A stretch of DNA of 64,000 nt, from NCBI RefSeq assembly GCF_019797745.1, contig NZ_VOSI01000003.1, positions 248,001 to 312,000 on the forward strand, given 5' to 3'. The notes under the pieces are model-generated. The model did no database searches and was not told the origin of the DNA. It worked only from the letters and a program-made list of their open reading frames with translations. This document shows positions 9,316-55,034 of the stretch, in pieces. How positions within the stretch are numbered: the stretch's first letter is position 1; each line of letters opens with the position of its first letter. The translations under genes and the position numbers were made by a program. This DNA comes from Edaphocola aurantiacus. GTDB lineage: Bacteria; Bacteroidota; Bacteroidia; Chitinophagales; Chitinophagaceae.

Positions 9316-9350
9316 TAAGAGGCAGGATTTTAGTCCTGCCTCTTATTATA
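9311..9350. terminator. Bidirectional terminator, 17-bp perfect stem
   Basis: TATAATAAGAGGCAGGA (9311-9327) pairs with 9334-9350, loop TTTTAG. It contains the stop codons of both convergent genes. Confidence 0.85.
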
Positions 9351-9561
9351 AACCTATAAATTCAGCTATTTTACTTCGATTGCCACCCATAAAGACAGCA
9401 CTTTCTCCAGCAAAATGAAATCTCACAAACATTCCTAATTGGATTTTTGCAAGATGAAAAATATCCTTTAATTCTGATTCACTGATGCCAAGTTGAGCAT
9501 TTATCTCACTAAATGTAACCATTCTTTTGTTTTGATACAGATATGATAATACTTGTTTCAT
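9346..9561 (-). CDS. Small HTH-like protein, 71 aa
   Basis: The sequence MKQVLSYLYQNKRMVTFSEINAQLGISESELKDIF reads as a helix-turn-helix: helix, FSEINAQLGIS turn, SESELKDIFHLA recognition helix, then a possible wing (MFVRFHFAGESAVFMGG). This suggests a small winged-helix DNA-binding protein. No family name can be given. It lies 140 bases ahead of, and divergent from, the TIR operon, so it could regulate it; that is inference. Confidence 0.6.
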   Translation of the reverse strand: MKQVLSYLYQNKRMVTFSEINAQLGISESELKDIFHLAKIQLGMFVRFHFAGESAVFMGGNRSKIAEFIGL

Positions 9562-9701
9562 GTCTTATTGATTTGTTTGCGAAAAGTATAAGGGTATAAA
9601 TTTTACTGACCAAATAATATGCTTAAATAATTTATCCCAATGTTGTGCCAAGTCGCTTCTAATTGTTAAATTTGATTGTATTTATATAAATATTTGCAAA
9701 T

Positions 9702-10625
9702 ATGAATTTGAGTAGTTATTATGACAGAGTAAGCAGACTTGAGAAGGAAATTTCCGATCTACAACACAAAATTGCAGGAGAAACAAAAAAGGAAGTGGAT
9801 AAACAAAAACAAATTGAAAGTATAAATCGCTCAATTAATAAATCTACGTCCATATCTAGTTTGCAAAGTAAGAATAGGCAGATACAAGGTTACCAGAATG
9901 ACATAATTAAGGTTCAGACTAACAAAGCTAGCATTCATAAGCAAATAGCTGATAAAACAAGTCAATTAGCAAGAGCAAAGCAAGATTTACAGAAAGAAGA
10001 AATAAAGGAAAGTGATAAATTAAGAAAGGAGCAAGAGCAGTTTAGAAGAGAACAAATGAATTTTCAACAAGATCAACAACGATTTCAACGGGAGCAAGAA
10101 AATCTCCAAAGGAAGCTACAGTCTGATATTTCCATTCAAAAGGAAGCACTTAATACTCTTGTCCATCAAATCCATAATGCTAATTCTACAACAAGTGACC
10201 AAGTAATGACATCTAAACAATATGACTTCTTTATATCCCATGCTTCAGAGGATAAAGATAGCTTTGTTAGGCCACTAGCTGATATATTGAAGGCAAAAGG
10301 ATTAAGTATATGGTACGATGAATTTGAACTCAAAATAGGAGACAGCTTAAGAAAGAAGATTGATGAAGGCTTAAAATTGTCTAAGTATGGTATTGTTGTT
10401 CTTTCTCGTGACTTCTTTAAGAAAAATTGGACTGAATATGAATTGAATGGTATGGTAGCAAAAGAAATGTACGGCATTAAGGTAATACTTCCAATATGGC
10501 ATAATGTGACAAGAGATGAAGTATTTTCCTTTAGTCCTACATTAGCTGATAAAGTAGCTTTAAATACCGCCCTATATGGCATTGAAGAAATTTCATCTGA
10601 ATTAGCGAAACTAATAGAAAATTAA
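9702..10625 (+). CDS. Coiled-coil TIR-domain protein (probable NAD-cleaving defence effector)
   Basis: 307 aa. An N-terminal helical/coiled-coil module (about 1-155; SSYYDRVSRLEKEISDLQ, then a basic KKEVDKQKQIESINRSI block) leads into a TIR domain (about 173-305). TIR hallmarks are YDFFISHASEDKD (box 1), GLSIWYDEFELKIGD, the SRDFF strand and NWTEYEL, where Glu247 is in the position of the catalytic Glu of NAD-hydrolysing TIRs. Bacterial TIRs usually sense phage infection and deplete NAD or make signalling nucleotides; the coiled coil probably drives oligomerisation. There is no signal peptide. One base separates its stop from the next gene, so the two form an operon. I recall this N-terminal module in front of other TIR domains in databases, unverified. 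Confidence 0.85.
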   Translation: MNLSSYYDRVSRLEKEISDLQHKIAGETKKEVDKQKQIESINRSINKSTSISSLQSKNRQIQGYQNDIIKVQTNKASIHKQIADKTSQLARAKQDLQKEEIKESDKLRKEQEQFRREQMNFQQDQQRFQREQENLQRKLQSDISIQKEALNTLVHQIHNANSTTSDQVMTSKQYDFFISHASEDKDSFVRPLADILKAKGLSIWYDEFELKIGDSLRKKIDEGLKLSKYGIVVLSRDFFKKNWTEYELNGMVAKEMYGIKVILPIWHNVTRDEVFSFSPTLADKVALNTALYGIEEISSELAKLIEN

Positions 10626-10626
10626 T

Positions 10627-11199
10627 ATGGGTTTAAAAGTTAGTACTATAGCATCAATTCCAGAGAATGTAGAGCGAAGTTATTACTTATATATTCTTGA
10701 TTATTACAACTGGGATGAGCCAATAAGTAAAACATTACGCAATAGCTTCGATAAGATAGCAGAATTTGCCGCCGAAAATGATTCAGTTGCTATTCAGGGT
10801 ATTCCTGAAAGCCATTTTTATTCGGAGTTGATGTCTTGGAAAGCTGTCAATGGAATAAATCCCGAAGATTTATTGCCAGCCCTAATGATTACAACAATTC
10901 ATCCAAGATATTTTTTAGATAGACATAATGTACCGGATGAGAACGAGAATATTCCTGAAGATAAACTTGTATTTATTGAATTAAGGAAAACTTGTAAAGA
11001 ACCACAGGATGTTATAAAGATTATTGAAAAGATCTTTAAGGATATTAAAGAGCGTAAAGAGATTAAAGATTTCAAAGTGAAGAAAGAACTTAAGGCAGGA
11101 GTTGGCAAGATTCTAAATGACACAATAATTTTAGAACCAAACATTGCAGGTTTGGGGATAAATTTCAATAATATATTTAGATTCTTATCAAGAAAATGA
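10627..11199 (+). CDS. Partner protein of the TIR effector, unknown family
   Basis: 190 aa, starting one base after the TIR gene, so co-translated with it. The first half (KVSTIASIPENVERSYYLYILDYYNWDEP, then HFYSELMSWKAVNGINPEDLLPALMITTIHPRYF) looks like a compact alpha/beta fold; then comes a Lys/Glu-rich helix (about 128-152, DVIKIIEKIFKDIKERKEIKDF) and a hydrophobic tail (NIAGLGINFNNIFRFL). There is no signal peptide or known catalytic motif. Given the tight linkage it may be the sensor, inhibitor or scaffold of the TIR enzyme. No Pfam family is recognised. Confidence 0.75.
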   Translation: MGLKVSTIASIPENVERSYYLYILDYYNWDEPISKTLRNSFDKIAEFAAENDSVAIQGIPESHFYSELMSWKAVNGINPEDLLPALMITTIHPRYFLDRHNVPDENENIPEDKLVFIELRKTCKEPQDVIKIIEKIFKDIKERKEIKDFKVKKELKAGVGKILNDTIILEPNIAGLGINFNNIFRFLSRK

Positions 11200-11254: not shown

Positions 11255-11428
11255 ATGAGTAAAAGTAATTTGCCAAAAAAAGATGAAAAAGTCATCGAGA
11301 AAATACCAGTTGGAGATAAACTCCCTGAAAAGTTTAGAAGAGAGCCACTAATTTTTAATAAAATTTGTACTCATATAGTGCATTCTAATATGATAATTGA
11401 TTTATTAGGACTTGATTTTAAGTATTAA
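11255..11428 (+). CDS. 57-aa companion of the retropepsin-like protease
   Basis: A frame from ATG to TAA lying 29 bases before the protease gene. The N-terminal half is polar and basic (MSKSNLPKKDEKVIEKIPVGDKLPEKFRREP); the C-terminal half is hydrophobic with HIVHSNMIIDLLGLDFKY. No domain is recognised. Its position suggests it is a substrate, inhibitor or subunit of the protease, which is inference. The polar/hydrophobic halves and the tight spacing speak for a real gene. Confidence 0.55.
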   Translation: MSKSNLPKKDEKVIEKIPVGDKLPEKFRREPLIFNKICTHIVHSNMIIDLLGLDFKY

Positions 11429-11457
11429 TAATTATTTCTTATTTTTGTTAAAAAAAT

Positions 11458-11865
11458 ATGCCAATACAAACTAATACAATTAATGAAGATAGAAAAATAA
11501 TTAGTCAAGTATACATTACTAACCCAAATAAGGAAGAAAATTCTTTTGAAATATCTGCATTATGGGATACGGGCGCTGTTGAATCAACAATAAGCCAAAG
11601 GGCAATTAATAGTTTAGAACTTGAGATTTCAGCTGATTTGCCACCTGTTATTCAAGTTAATGCACACGGTGATGAAGTTCAAGCTAATCGACATAGTACT
11701 TGTGTAATAGGTATTACTCAGAACGGGCAATTCTCAATGGAGGGATTAACAACAATGGGTAGTGAGAGAAATGGATGCGATATTATAATTGGAATGGATA
11801 TAATATCACAATTAAATTCATTTACGATTAGTGGTAATGAAGTTACTATTGATTATAACGAGTAA
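11458..11865 (+). CDS. Retropepsin-like aspartic protease, 135 aa
   Basis: The catalytic signature ALWDTGAVESTIS (Asp-Thr-Gly at about residue 38) and the downstream CDIIIGMDII (about 110-119, the hydrophobic-hydrophobic-Gly motif) are those of single-domain retropepsin-like proteases, which work as dimers. The whole protein is beta-rich and soluble. The neighbour upstream is a 57-aa unknown; downstream is an IS1595-type transposase. It lies within a run of defence-like genes, so a role in immunity is possible, but bacterial retropepsins also have housekeeping roles. Substrate unknown. Confidence 0.8.
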   Translation: MPIQTNTINEDRKIISQVYITNPNKEENSFEISALWDTGAVESTISQRAINSLELEISADLPPVIQVNAHGDEVQANRHSTCVIGITQNGQFSMEGLTTMGSERNGCDIIIGMDIISQLNSFTISGNEVTIDYNE

Positions 11866-11943: not shown

Positions 11944-12903
11944 TTAATACCAAGTAGTAGCGACCGCAGCAGTAATCAAACCATCAAAATTATCCCTGAA
12001 AGTAAAATTCCTACGATTCAACTTATATACAAACTCATTCAAATAACCCTGTAGATACTTAAGCCTAATTGAATGATGAGTACCCAAAAATTGTCTCTTG
12101 GCATTAGCAATAACAGTATGTACCCAAGGCAGTTTCTTCATCGCATCCTTACCTTTTACCTCTTGTGCATTATGGATCATTCCTAATTCACCCAAAGAAT
12201 TATATCCAGCCCATTTATCAGTATTAATAATAGTTCCTTTCGCTACTCCCTTTACAACCTCATAATTAATACTATTACTACTCGCATCATTTATAACTGT
12301 CATCTTAGCAAAACCCATAACTCTATTCTTATCATGGGGCTTCTCCTGCATAGTAGAACGGCTTTCAACCTGAACTAATACCTTTGCTTGTCTTTGACTA
12401 CCTCGGCCCCGCTTTAACGTCTTTTCAACTGTATAGTCATTGTTATTTATCATTTCAGTTTGAACAGAATCACTTAAAGTAACAGCCTCAAAGAATCCCT
12501 CATCCATTTCAATTTCACCCTCTAACATATATTTTCCATCACGTTTACCCATAGAGTTTCTAATCTTCATCATCATATTCCATACAGTTTCATAACGATT
12601 ACATCCTATTTGACGTTGCATTTCCAAAGTAGAAAATGGCTTTTTAGATGTAGTCATCAAATGAATAACGGTATACCATGTATGAAAAGGCATATGTGTG
12701 TTTTGTAACATTGTACCAGACTTAAGATTCGTACGGGAACGACATCTTGAGCACTGGAATTTTTCTACTGAGGCTAACCAATAATGTTTGGTTTTTACTC
12801 TGCACCTTCCACATGTAATTCCTTGTTTTAATCTTTCGTCTCTAAAGTGATCTCTACATGCAAACTCATCTTTAAATCGTCTAATAAATTCTAATATTTT
12901 CAT
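11944..12903 (-). CDS. IS1595-family transposase (ISXO2-like)
   Basis: 319 aa, full length. An N-terminal zinc ribbon (CGRCRVKTKHYWLASVEKFQCSRC, Cys at about 31, 34, 51, 54) is followed by a helical DNA-binding part (TLEMQRQIGCNRYETVWNMMMKIR) and the ISXO2-type catalytic domain (EIEMDEGFFEAV, INTDKWAGYNSLG, HSIRLKYLQGYLNEFVYKLNRR). All catalytic blocks look intact. I compared both flanks by eye and found no terminal inverted repeats or target duplication, so it may be an immobile solitary copy. It marks the distal part of the island. Confidence 0.9.
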   Translation of the reverse strand: MKILEFIRRFKDEFACRDHFRDERLKQGITCGRCRVKTKHYWLASVEKFQCSRCRSRTNLKSGTMLQNTHMPFHTWYTVIHLMTTSKKPFSTLEMQRQIGCNRYETVWNMMMKIRNSMGKRDGKYMLEGEIEMDEGFFEAVTLSDSVQTEMINNNDYTVEKTLKRGRGSQRQAKVLVQVESRSTMQEKPHDKNRVMGFAKMTVINDASSNSINYEVVKGVAKGTIINTDKWAGYNSLGELGMIHNAQEVKGKDAMKKLPWVHTVIANAKRQFLGTHHSIRLKYLQGYLNEFVYKLNRRNFTFRDNFDGLITAAVATTWY

Positions 12904-13059: not shown

Positions 13060-13545
13060 CAGTTAATTGATTATCCGCTTACAGGAAACAAAGATTTGCC
13101 TTTTTCCTCGCGTTAATTTCTATGGCTACCTTTTGCCTTGATGCAAAAGGTAGTGCCAAAAAATCAAGGCTGTATAAATCCCTGGCTAAAAATCAATGTG
13201 TCGATCGGTCGCAAACCAGACTCACTGCGTTCAGACAGTGGTTTCCGACTTTAGCGACCGAGCCAATGATTTTCTTGACGCCGGATTTATAAGGCCTTTC
13301 GAGCGATCTGTTCTGTACGGATCGCTTATTGTTTTCATCACAGCGATAGCCATTTTGGAGTGGAGCTGCGATCGTTGAGCACCGAACGAATCACACGTTA
13401 AGCTCAGACGATCAATGCACGCAACGATACAAAATGACGGTGCATTGCAATCGCCTTGATGAAAACAAAGGCACTTTTGGTCCTTTTGTTGCCGGACAAA
13501 AGGACAAGTAAAATAGTTGACTAAATGTGGATAGTCAGTTTTATT
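13060..13545. repeat. Palindromic repeat family, copy 1 (longest)
   Basis: This segment carries many inverted repeats: AGCGATC/GATCGCT; GTTTTCATCA...GCGAT against ATCG...TGATGAAAAC, about 17 bp with two mismatches; CATTTTG/CAAAATG; GATCGTTGAGC against GCTCAGACGATC. Together they could fold into one large cruciform. Part 13240-13505 matches copy 2 (20356-20619); the outer parts 13060-13143 and 13453-13545 match copy 3 (54880-55034, opposite strand). The sequence between 13144 and 13461 is flanked by GCCTTGATG repeats and is missing from copy 3. No protein is encoded. It resembles a MITE or REP-like element without its own transposase. Confidence 0.8.
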
Positions 13546-13926
13546 TTAAATAGCAGTAGTCTTAGCGGCTATTTAAATACATCATTGCTTTTAAAAGAAT
13601 ATTGGAGCGAAAGTTCAACAGTACAATCCCTCAAACACATTCAGCTTTTGCCCTCCTATGACATTTACCCTCCTATGACATTTACATAGCCTCGGCACAC
13701 CTGCACAAGCCTAAAAGCAGAATTGGGTAGGCGGCTTAAAAGGCCTATTGTGCTTTCGTATCGGATGGGCATGGGACCTGCTAACCAGGCCATGCAGCAG
13801 CTGATCAAAGAGTCAGCCAGTATCATGAAGGCCTGCACCCTATAATAATTTGACAACAGAGGCCTATGCTGAGTTAGAACGGAGCAAAATCCCTGATCTG
13901 TTAATGCTCCCAAGCCAGTTTTTTCA
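13546..13926. other. Gene-remnant region between island and mnmE
   Basis: No intact gene is seen. On the plus strand, short open stretches read like protein (LKAELGRRLKRPIVLSYRMG..., then in another frame TTEAYAELERSKIPDLLML), suggesting a frameshifted remnant that I cannot identify. Base composition is closer to the core genome than to the island. Confidence 0.35.
13651..13684. repeat. 17-bp perfect tandem duplication
   Basis: CCCTCCTATGACATTTA occurs twice back to back (13651-13667, 13668-13684). It could be a slippage product or a junction scar of the island. Confidence 0.8.
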
Positions 13927-20292: not shown

Positions 20293-20355
20293 TTGTACAG
20301 AATTAATGGAATTGATTACCTGCATTTAGCAAGTAATACCCAATATTACTCTTTT

Positions 20356-20619
20356 GGTTTCCGACTTTGTCGACCGAGCCAATGATTTTCTTGACGCCGG
20401 ATTTATAAGGCCATTCTAAGCGATCTGTTCTGTACGGATCGCTTGTTGTTTTCATCACAGCGATAGTCATTTTGGTTGGAGATGCGATCGCTGAGCAGCG
20501 AACGGACCATACGTTAAGCTCAGACGATCAAAGCACGCAACGGTACAAAATGCCGGTGCCTAGCAATCGCCTTGATGAAAACAGGCACTTTTGGTCCTTT
20601 TGTTGCCGGACAAAAGGAC
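20356..20619. repeat. Palindromic repeat family, copy 2
   Basis: Matches 13240-13505 of copy 1 along its whole length with scattered substitutions and few small indels. The main stems are kept (GCGATC/GATCGC, GTTTTCATCA/TGATGAAAAC, CATTTTG/CAAAATG), and changes such as GTTGAGC to GCTGAGC fall in stem arms. The left part of copy 1 (before GGTTTCCGAC) is absent. Intergenic; no coding potential. Confidence 0.8.
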
Positions 20620-20663
20620 GGACATATGGTTACCAAGATCAGTAGATAAACATAGATGATTTT

Positions 20664-54879: not shown

Positions 54880-55034
54880 GAAAACTAACTATCCGTAGTC
54901 AACTATTTTATTCGTCCTTTTGTCCGGGCAATAAAAGGACCAAAAATGCCTTTGTTTTCATCAAGGCAAAAGGTAGCCATAAAAAGGAACTTGAGGAAAA
55001 AGGTAAATCTTTGTTTCCTGTAAGCGGATACTCC
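54880..55034 (-). repeat. Palindromic repeat family, copy 3 (short form)
   Basis: On the minus strand this reads as copy 1 outer parts joined: the segment with ATCCGCTTACAGGAAACAAAG and the following bases up to GCCTTGATG, then directly the bases after the second GCCTTGATG of copy 1, up to GTTGACTA. The 318 bp present in copy 1 are missing. Intergenic. Confidence 0.8.

Follow-up and report, generated by a model that had tools for sequence, protein, structure and literature searches.

A TIR-domain gene and a nameless mobile gene lying one base apart in Edaphocola aurantiacus are probably independent of each other

A stretch of 64,000 nucleotides from Edaphocola aurantiacus (NCBI RefSeq assembly GCF_019797745.1, contig NZ_VOSI01000003.1, positions 248,001 to 312,000 of the forward strand; referred to here as the window) carries a gene for a TIR-domain protein of 307 amino acids (9702-10625, forward strand) followed, one base further on and on the same strand, by a gene for a 190 amino acid orphan protein, P190 (10627-11199, forward strand). 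These are probably two autonomous, horizontally moving genes that have been joined in a strain-variable stretch beside an insertion sequence. This degree of confidence belongs to the reading of two independent genes as such, and that reading and its rivals are not fully exclusive of one another. The first-pass annotation of this DNA had reported the one-base spacing, which was confirmed, and had gone on to infer a fixed stoichiometry and a two-gene defence system not yet described. Neither of these proposals was supported. The order, strand and spacing of the two genes vary between genomes and each gene is often found without the other, while the TIR protein corresponds to a catalogued candidate, PDC-S66, with relatives that lack P190. 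A fixed two-gene unit was rejected on the same grounds, TIR_2 being wholly absent (at E 0.001) from eight of the 26 genomes that carry P190, one of which (L024) holds a P190 fragment only.

The block that contains the two genes is strain-variable. From 13.5 to 34.6 kb, the right flank is collinear with that of the most closely related genome within the genus (mnmE is 98% identical), and to the left of 13.06 kb there was no match at E 1e-10 to roughly 75 kb of the same side of that genome. A transposase of the IS1595 type, identified by a family profile match, bounds the block (11944-12903, reverse strand). A repeat of about 490 bases (13063-13552) lies at the break in synteny, parts of which recur at 20355-20624 and about 54882-55031 and also at several places in the close genome. 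Upstream of the TIR gene, TAAATTTG (9667-9674, forward strand), which ends 27 bases before the TIR start, is a candidate for the Bacteroidota -7 element, the consensus of which is TANNTTTG. No -7-like element was seen in the 327 bases preceding P190, and this, together with the one-base gap, suggests that the two genes are co-transcribed; a single transcript is plausible on these sequence grounds. Further upstream on the opposite strand is a small ORF of 71 amino acids (9346-9561, reverse strand). It had been called a helix-turn-helix (HTH) protein, and its position and orientation are as described, but its matches to HTH profiles are all below cut-off (best E 0.014).

The TIR protein consists of an N-terminal part (residues 1-165) and a C-terminal TIR domain (about residues 173-274). 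A Pfam scan placed TIR_2 on residues 176-268 (E 1.9e-19) and TIR on residues 173-274, both well past the cut-offs. In the W..(E)L stretch the glutamate is E247 (codon 10440-10442, forward strand), which we take to be the catalytic residue of the domain. All 13 rows of a TIR alignment have it (the rows of L030 and L045 appear identical to each other), in agreement with the earlier claim that this residue is retained. A coiled coil had also been claimed for the N-terminus. Residues 1-165 contain no proline and two glycines, and out of 1000 shuffles the number that equalled or bettered the helix periodicity was 13 for residues 8-45, 5 for residues 106-160, 143 for residues 55-105 and 32 for residues 1-165 as a whole; the test is weak, the TIR domain itself giving 33 of 1000 at a period of 3.9. 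Weak matches to profiles of the SMC, JetC, OmpH and tape-measure types were also seen. With a proline-free N-terminus and periodicity in two of three stretches, set against the weakness of the test, the coiled coil is likely, not proven.

The PADLOC profile PDC-S66 matches residues 1-306 of the TIR protein over positions 1-281 of 282 (E 6.4e-104), with the N-terminal helices included, and PHROG 15646 matches the protein end to end (E 1.5e-87). By profile match, the TIR half is already catalogued as the single-gene phage-defence candidate PDC-S66, and this holds for the TIR half and not for P190. The window differs from PDC-S66 in having P190 directly after the TIR gene. PDC-S66 is among the candidates described as uncharacterized so far in PMC12482510, the sole paper retrieved by a search for its name.

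Further evidence for the independence of the TIR gene comes from its relatives. The TIR protein had a match at E 1e-20 or below in 15 of 296 genomes of the phylum (that of the window counted), and in two of these besides the window the match extends over the full protein (L030, 73% identity; L033, 41%). Matches were also found in six phage records, four of which (H11-H14) span 80% or more of the query, and in 337 plasmid records, three of which (H17-H19) reach the same coverage. Neighbourhoods were inspected for five full-length relatives (L030, L033, H12, H13 and H17), and P190 was beside none of them. The TIR gene of a Klebsiella phage record has an orientation opposite to that of all the neighbours listed, and that of phage phi OH2 comes after HTH and metallo-protease genes, close to an integrase. 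The occurrence of TIR relatives in phages, plasmids and chromosomes without P190 points to the habit of a one-gene device on mobile elements. A TIR relative in E. coli MS1657 (L027, 5538-7105) is followed by a different protein, of 218 amino acids and with a likely membrane helix as judged by eye, and an integrase adjoins.

The window TIR protein shares features with ThsB of the Thoeris system, in that it matches PDLC00417 (E 1.3e-49, residues 138-304) and that the TIRs found near P190 in a planctomycete (L015) and in Serratia (L020) match PDLC00424 near full length. Effectors of the ThsA type are of the SIR2/SLOG or macro kind. Unlike Thoeris, the window has no ThsA-like neighbour among the ORFs scanned, and P190 matches none of these either. 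SpbK, too, is encoded by one gene and has a non-TIR part at its N-terminus. The SpbK protein of Bacillus subtilis is described as a TIR NADase of abortive infection that is switched on when a phage portal protein clusters the TIR domains (PMC12847820). The match between its profile and the window TIR is weak and partial (E 0.00085, residues 33-198), and SpbK may serve as a working model by likeness, not by membership. Following this model, the TIR protein would be a one-gene abortive-infection device; its membership of the catalogue, its glutamate and its occurrence without P190 are observed, and its function in defence is inferred. The helical N-terminus would hold or perhaps sense, a phage component might bring TIR proteins into clusters as in SpbK, and the clustered TIR domains would then cleave NAD+ as SpbK does.

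P190 was claimed in the first-pass annotation to belong to no recognised family, and profile searches bore this out: nothing was found in Pfam or PADLOC even at E 1, and the best values in NCBIfam and PHROG (E 0.012 and 0.27) were far short of significance. A Pfam scan of 21 members of the P190 family gave a best E of 0.0069 (Pox_I3, in two members), which was taken as chance, and sequence searches of the PDB with P190 gave nothing useful. The family is nonetheless conserved. A scan of genome contigs identified 23 P190 loci at 48-88% identity, fragments among them; copies in other genomes are given as 48-79% identical, and those of other phyla as 48-64%. The scan depends on the retention of one of six peptides, and the family must therefore have more members than are given here. 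Among 147 relatives searched, the window copy alone was found; 395 genomes of the phylum yielded three carriers, two of them new (L025 and L026), and 398 genomes of the phylum to which L017 belongs yielded two, both already known. This brings the total to 25 loci besides the window, five of them broken or fragments, scattered across Bacteroidota, Proteobacteria, Planctomycetes and Campylobacterota. Conserved residues include Y20, L24, D25, W29, P32, S62-E67, N75-G76, P84-A85 and H92-P93. Of nine pairs compared, four gave a dN/dS ratio of 0.04-0.19 and the remaining five had saturated dS; by this measure P190 is a real gene under purifying selection. A frame shift (L018), an early stop (L020), an internal loss (L022) and two fragments (L023 and L024) are the remains to be expected of a mobile, dispensable gene. 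The C-terminal tail of P190 carries the motif PNxxGxGxN (11137-11169, forward strand), the sole match of this pattern in the window at up to one mismatch. The same tail is found at the end of two proteins (187 and 182 amino acids; L065, 1498-1593; L066, 1474-1572) that show no other relationship, one of which is near genes that appear phage-like by eye; beyond those known, a wider profile search with the tail gave weak matches only. It is perhaps a shared C-terminal tail.

Structure prediction of P190, which had been proposed earlier, gave two models with disagreeing folds. The first AlphaFold2 model (pLDDT 67.5, pTM 0.69) retrieved mostly thioredoxin-fold entries among the 50 matches listed from each of the PDB and BFVD, with best E values of 0.02 and 0.04 respectively and none under E 0.001 among the matches listed. 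At the positions of the thioredoxin motifs W-C-G-P-C and cis-proline, P190 has W-D-E-P-I and L-P-A. It differs from the thioredoxins in that the CxxC cysteine pair is missing at the corresponding place (alignment A1). When the homologue from L017 was modelled (pLDDT 64.1), the ranked matches were to EngB, alpha/beta hydrolases and type II dehydroquinases, thioredoxins being absent from the 50 PDB matches listed, and a profile comparison of P190 with 30 thioredoxins was negative (probability 0.2%). The thioredoxin assignment was thus reproduced neither by the second model nor by the profile comparison. The models indicate that P190 is probably an alpha/beta protein, and a thioredoxin-like fold minus the cysteines is a lead only.

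The mobility of P190 is seen most clearly in its association with integrons. A member of the Campylobacterota (L022) has P190 flanked on both sides by 69-nt repeats, 91% identical, which include a hairpin (fold z -5.9) and have GTTAT as their last bases. P190 of a Methylobacillus (L013) is situated between repeats of 43 nt (77%) and 27 nt (78%), and that of a Microbulbifer (L019) has one of two 78-nt repeats (82% identity) downstream and, by eye, only GTTATGC upstream. From their look, we take these repeats to be attC-like. Four attC-like strands were tested, and for those of L013, L019 and L015 the advantage in folding over shuffled sequences is only moderate, 11, 13 and 12 of 200 shuffles respectively folding as well. 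AttC-like flanks were also noted by eye in L014 and L015, and a repeat search of L015 gave no attC pair. An attC-like stretch (again by eye) between the TIR gene and P190 of L015 would place the two in separate cassettes. The integron integrase TIGR02249 is above cut-off in four of the 26 carrier genomes (L013, L015, L019 and L022), being 3.4 kb from P190 in L013 and on a different contig in L015. P190 resembles integron cassettes, therefore, in lying between attC-like repeats (L013 and L022) or before them (L019) in genomes with an integrase, and from these repeats it is a single-gene integron cassette in two lineages, with one-sided repeats in a third. The window genome has no TIGR02249 match above cut-off, and the window P190 is not in a recognised integron. 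Carriage of P190 by phages or plasmids was considered and rejected, with zero matches in 50,697 phage records and 72,556 plasmid records, and viral contigs gave no match.

A check of co-occurrence, counting TIR by the TIR_2 model only, gave a divided result. The 26 carrier genomes have 42 TIR_2 matches in all. A TIR gene is found within 3 kb of P190 in seven of them (window, L005, L011, L015, L018, L020 and L025), where uniform placement would give 0.056, and TIR_2 is absent from within 3 kb in the other 19, some of those loci ending at contig ends. Both findings that the first-pass annotation had named as grounds against its proposal were thus made in part, P190 standing mostly without a TIR gene nearby and the TIR half being catalogued. 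Two defence families, chosen as controls because defence genes cluster, were examined in the same genomes: a TIR lies within 3 kb of 1 of 52 N6_Mtase genes and of 1 of 21 Mrr_cat genes (107 bases apart), or 2 of 73 together, with another N6_Mtase barely beyond the limit at 3.7 kb. The difference (7/26 against 2/73) has a Fisher p of 0.001, or 0.013 when the two genomes with broken P190 are scored as misses (5/26). The proximity of TIR and P190 exceeds island clustering as measured by these two families, and is not predicted by chance co-location in islands. The arrangement itself is variable: order, strand and spacing differ among the seven genomes, with gaps of 1, 106, 176, 193, 377, about 670 and 1819 bases, and P190 is broken in two of them (L018 and L020). 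A ThsB-type TIR is common to L015 and L020, and the TIRs of the window, L005, L011 and L018 have different lengths and best PADLOC profiles.

The best reading of these data is that two autonomous mobile genes of the defence type have come together, P190 having a preference for TIR neighbourhoods. The excess of TIR proximity over the controls and the likely co-transcription in the window weigh against this reading. P190 would be a self-sufficient cassette gene in phage defence or its control, independent of the TIR gene; it is probably co-transcribed with the TIR gene of the window and would not need it. We tentatively suggest that its product acts by binding and not by catalysis, and that its alpha/beta core may be thioredoxin-like but redox-dead. 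A search of the literature for a thioredoxin-like or integron-borne TIR partner found no such pair named, a nameless family being unfindable by words.

P190 may alternatively be a cassette gene for stress, metabolism or counter-defence that rides in the same variable regions without any role in defence. Integron cassettes carry genes of all kinds, and the absence of P190 from the PADLOC and PHROG collections and the purifying selection upon it are compatible with such a role; the recurring TIR and nuclease neighbours argue against it, and we regard it as unlikely. To a similar extent it is unlikely that P190 represents a defence cassette not described before, autonomous and very mobile, whose product would work with different TIR enzymes, and possibly with other effectors, in the common role of sensor, brake or signal receptor; such a reading would explain why different TIRs recur beside P190 across phyla.

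Rather doubtful is the original proposal in the form that P190 is a regulator, inhibitor or sensor partner of the window TIR made from the same transcript. The one-base gap with likely co-transcription, the excess of TIR proximity over the controls and the presence of a ThsB-type TIR near P190 in two phyla (L015 and L020) would all fit this. However, P190 is missing beside the nearest full-length TIR relative (L030), beside L033 and beside the phage and plasmid relatives, it exists as a single-gene cassette and in genomes without TIR_2, and where the two genes are close their arrangement varies and P190 may be broken.

Conflict systems include, as a concept, constant components that associate with effectors, and P190 could be such a module, coupling with whichever effector adjoins it (TIR, FRG, Mrr/HNH nuclease or reverse transcriptase). 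Besides the TIRs in seven of 26 genomes, the neighbours of P190 include an FRG protein of PDC-S15 (L014), Mrr_cat (L016), DUF559 and HNH_2 (L026), RVT_1 (L004), N6_Mtase/HSDR_N (L012) and HipA_C (L021), these coming from neighbours that were chosen by eye, with several loci ending at contig ends. Against this, no effector-type neighbour was noticed by eye in L006, L010 or L019, distances and strands vary, and island clustering accounts for much of what is seen; a constant module is improbable. A common unnamed protein of about 350 amino acids comes after P190 in Flavobacterium and Chitinophaga (L002, 6626-7678; L003, 6613-7677), and in L002 it adjoins an integrase.

Downstream of P190 and on the same strand are a 57 amino acid ORF with no family (11255-11428) and a retropepsin-like aspartic protease of clan AA with a DTGA motif (11458-11865, 135 amino acids; RVP_2 at 23.4 bits against a cut-off of 20.3), so that the gaps along the four genes from TIR to protease are 1, 55 and 29 bases. 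Distant relatives of the protease (25-32%) are present in six viral contigs, and it has a weak match to PADLOC PDC-M08B (E 0.0038). A four-gene operon whose protease would mature or remove the TIR protein, for which the close spacing on one strand and a sub-cut-off Asp_protease_2 match upstream of P190 and TIR in L018 could be cited, is very improbable, given that TATTTTTG at 11440, an element of the TANNTTTG type that begins 18 bases ahead of the protease gene, suggests a promoter of its own, that tblastn of the protease and the 57 amino acid ORF against 23 P190 loci gave only one chance-level match (E 0.85, L007), and that the relatives of the protease in viral contigs are distant and plasmids have none.

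With two independent genes as the preferred reading, the TIR half is one more member of a catalogued and uncharacterised candidate. The interest of the locus lies in P190, a nameless family under purifying selection that is exchanged across phyla, partly as an integron cassette, and lies close to different TIR genes more often than two control defence families do. If P190 protects by itself it would be a new one-gene defence, and if it is a general accessory of TIR proteins it would represent a portable common partner for TIR defence.
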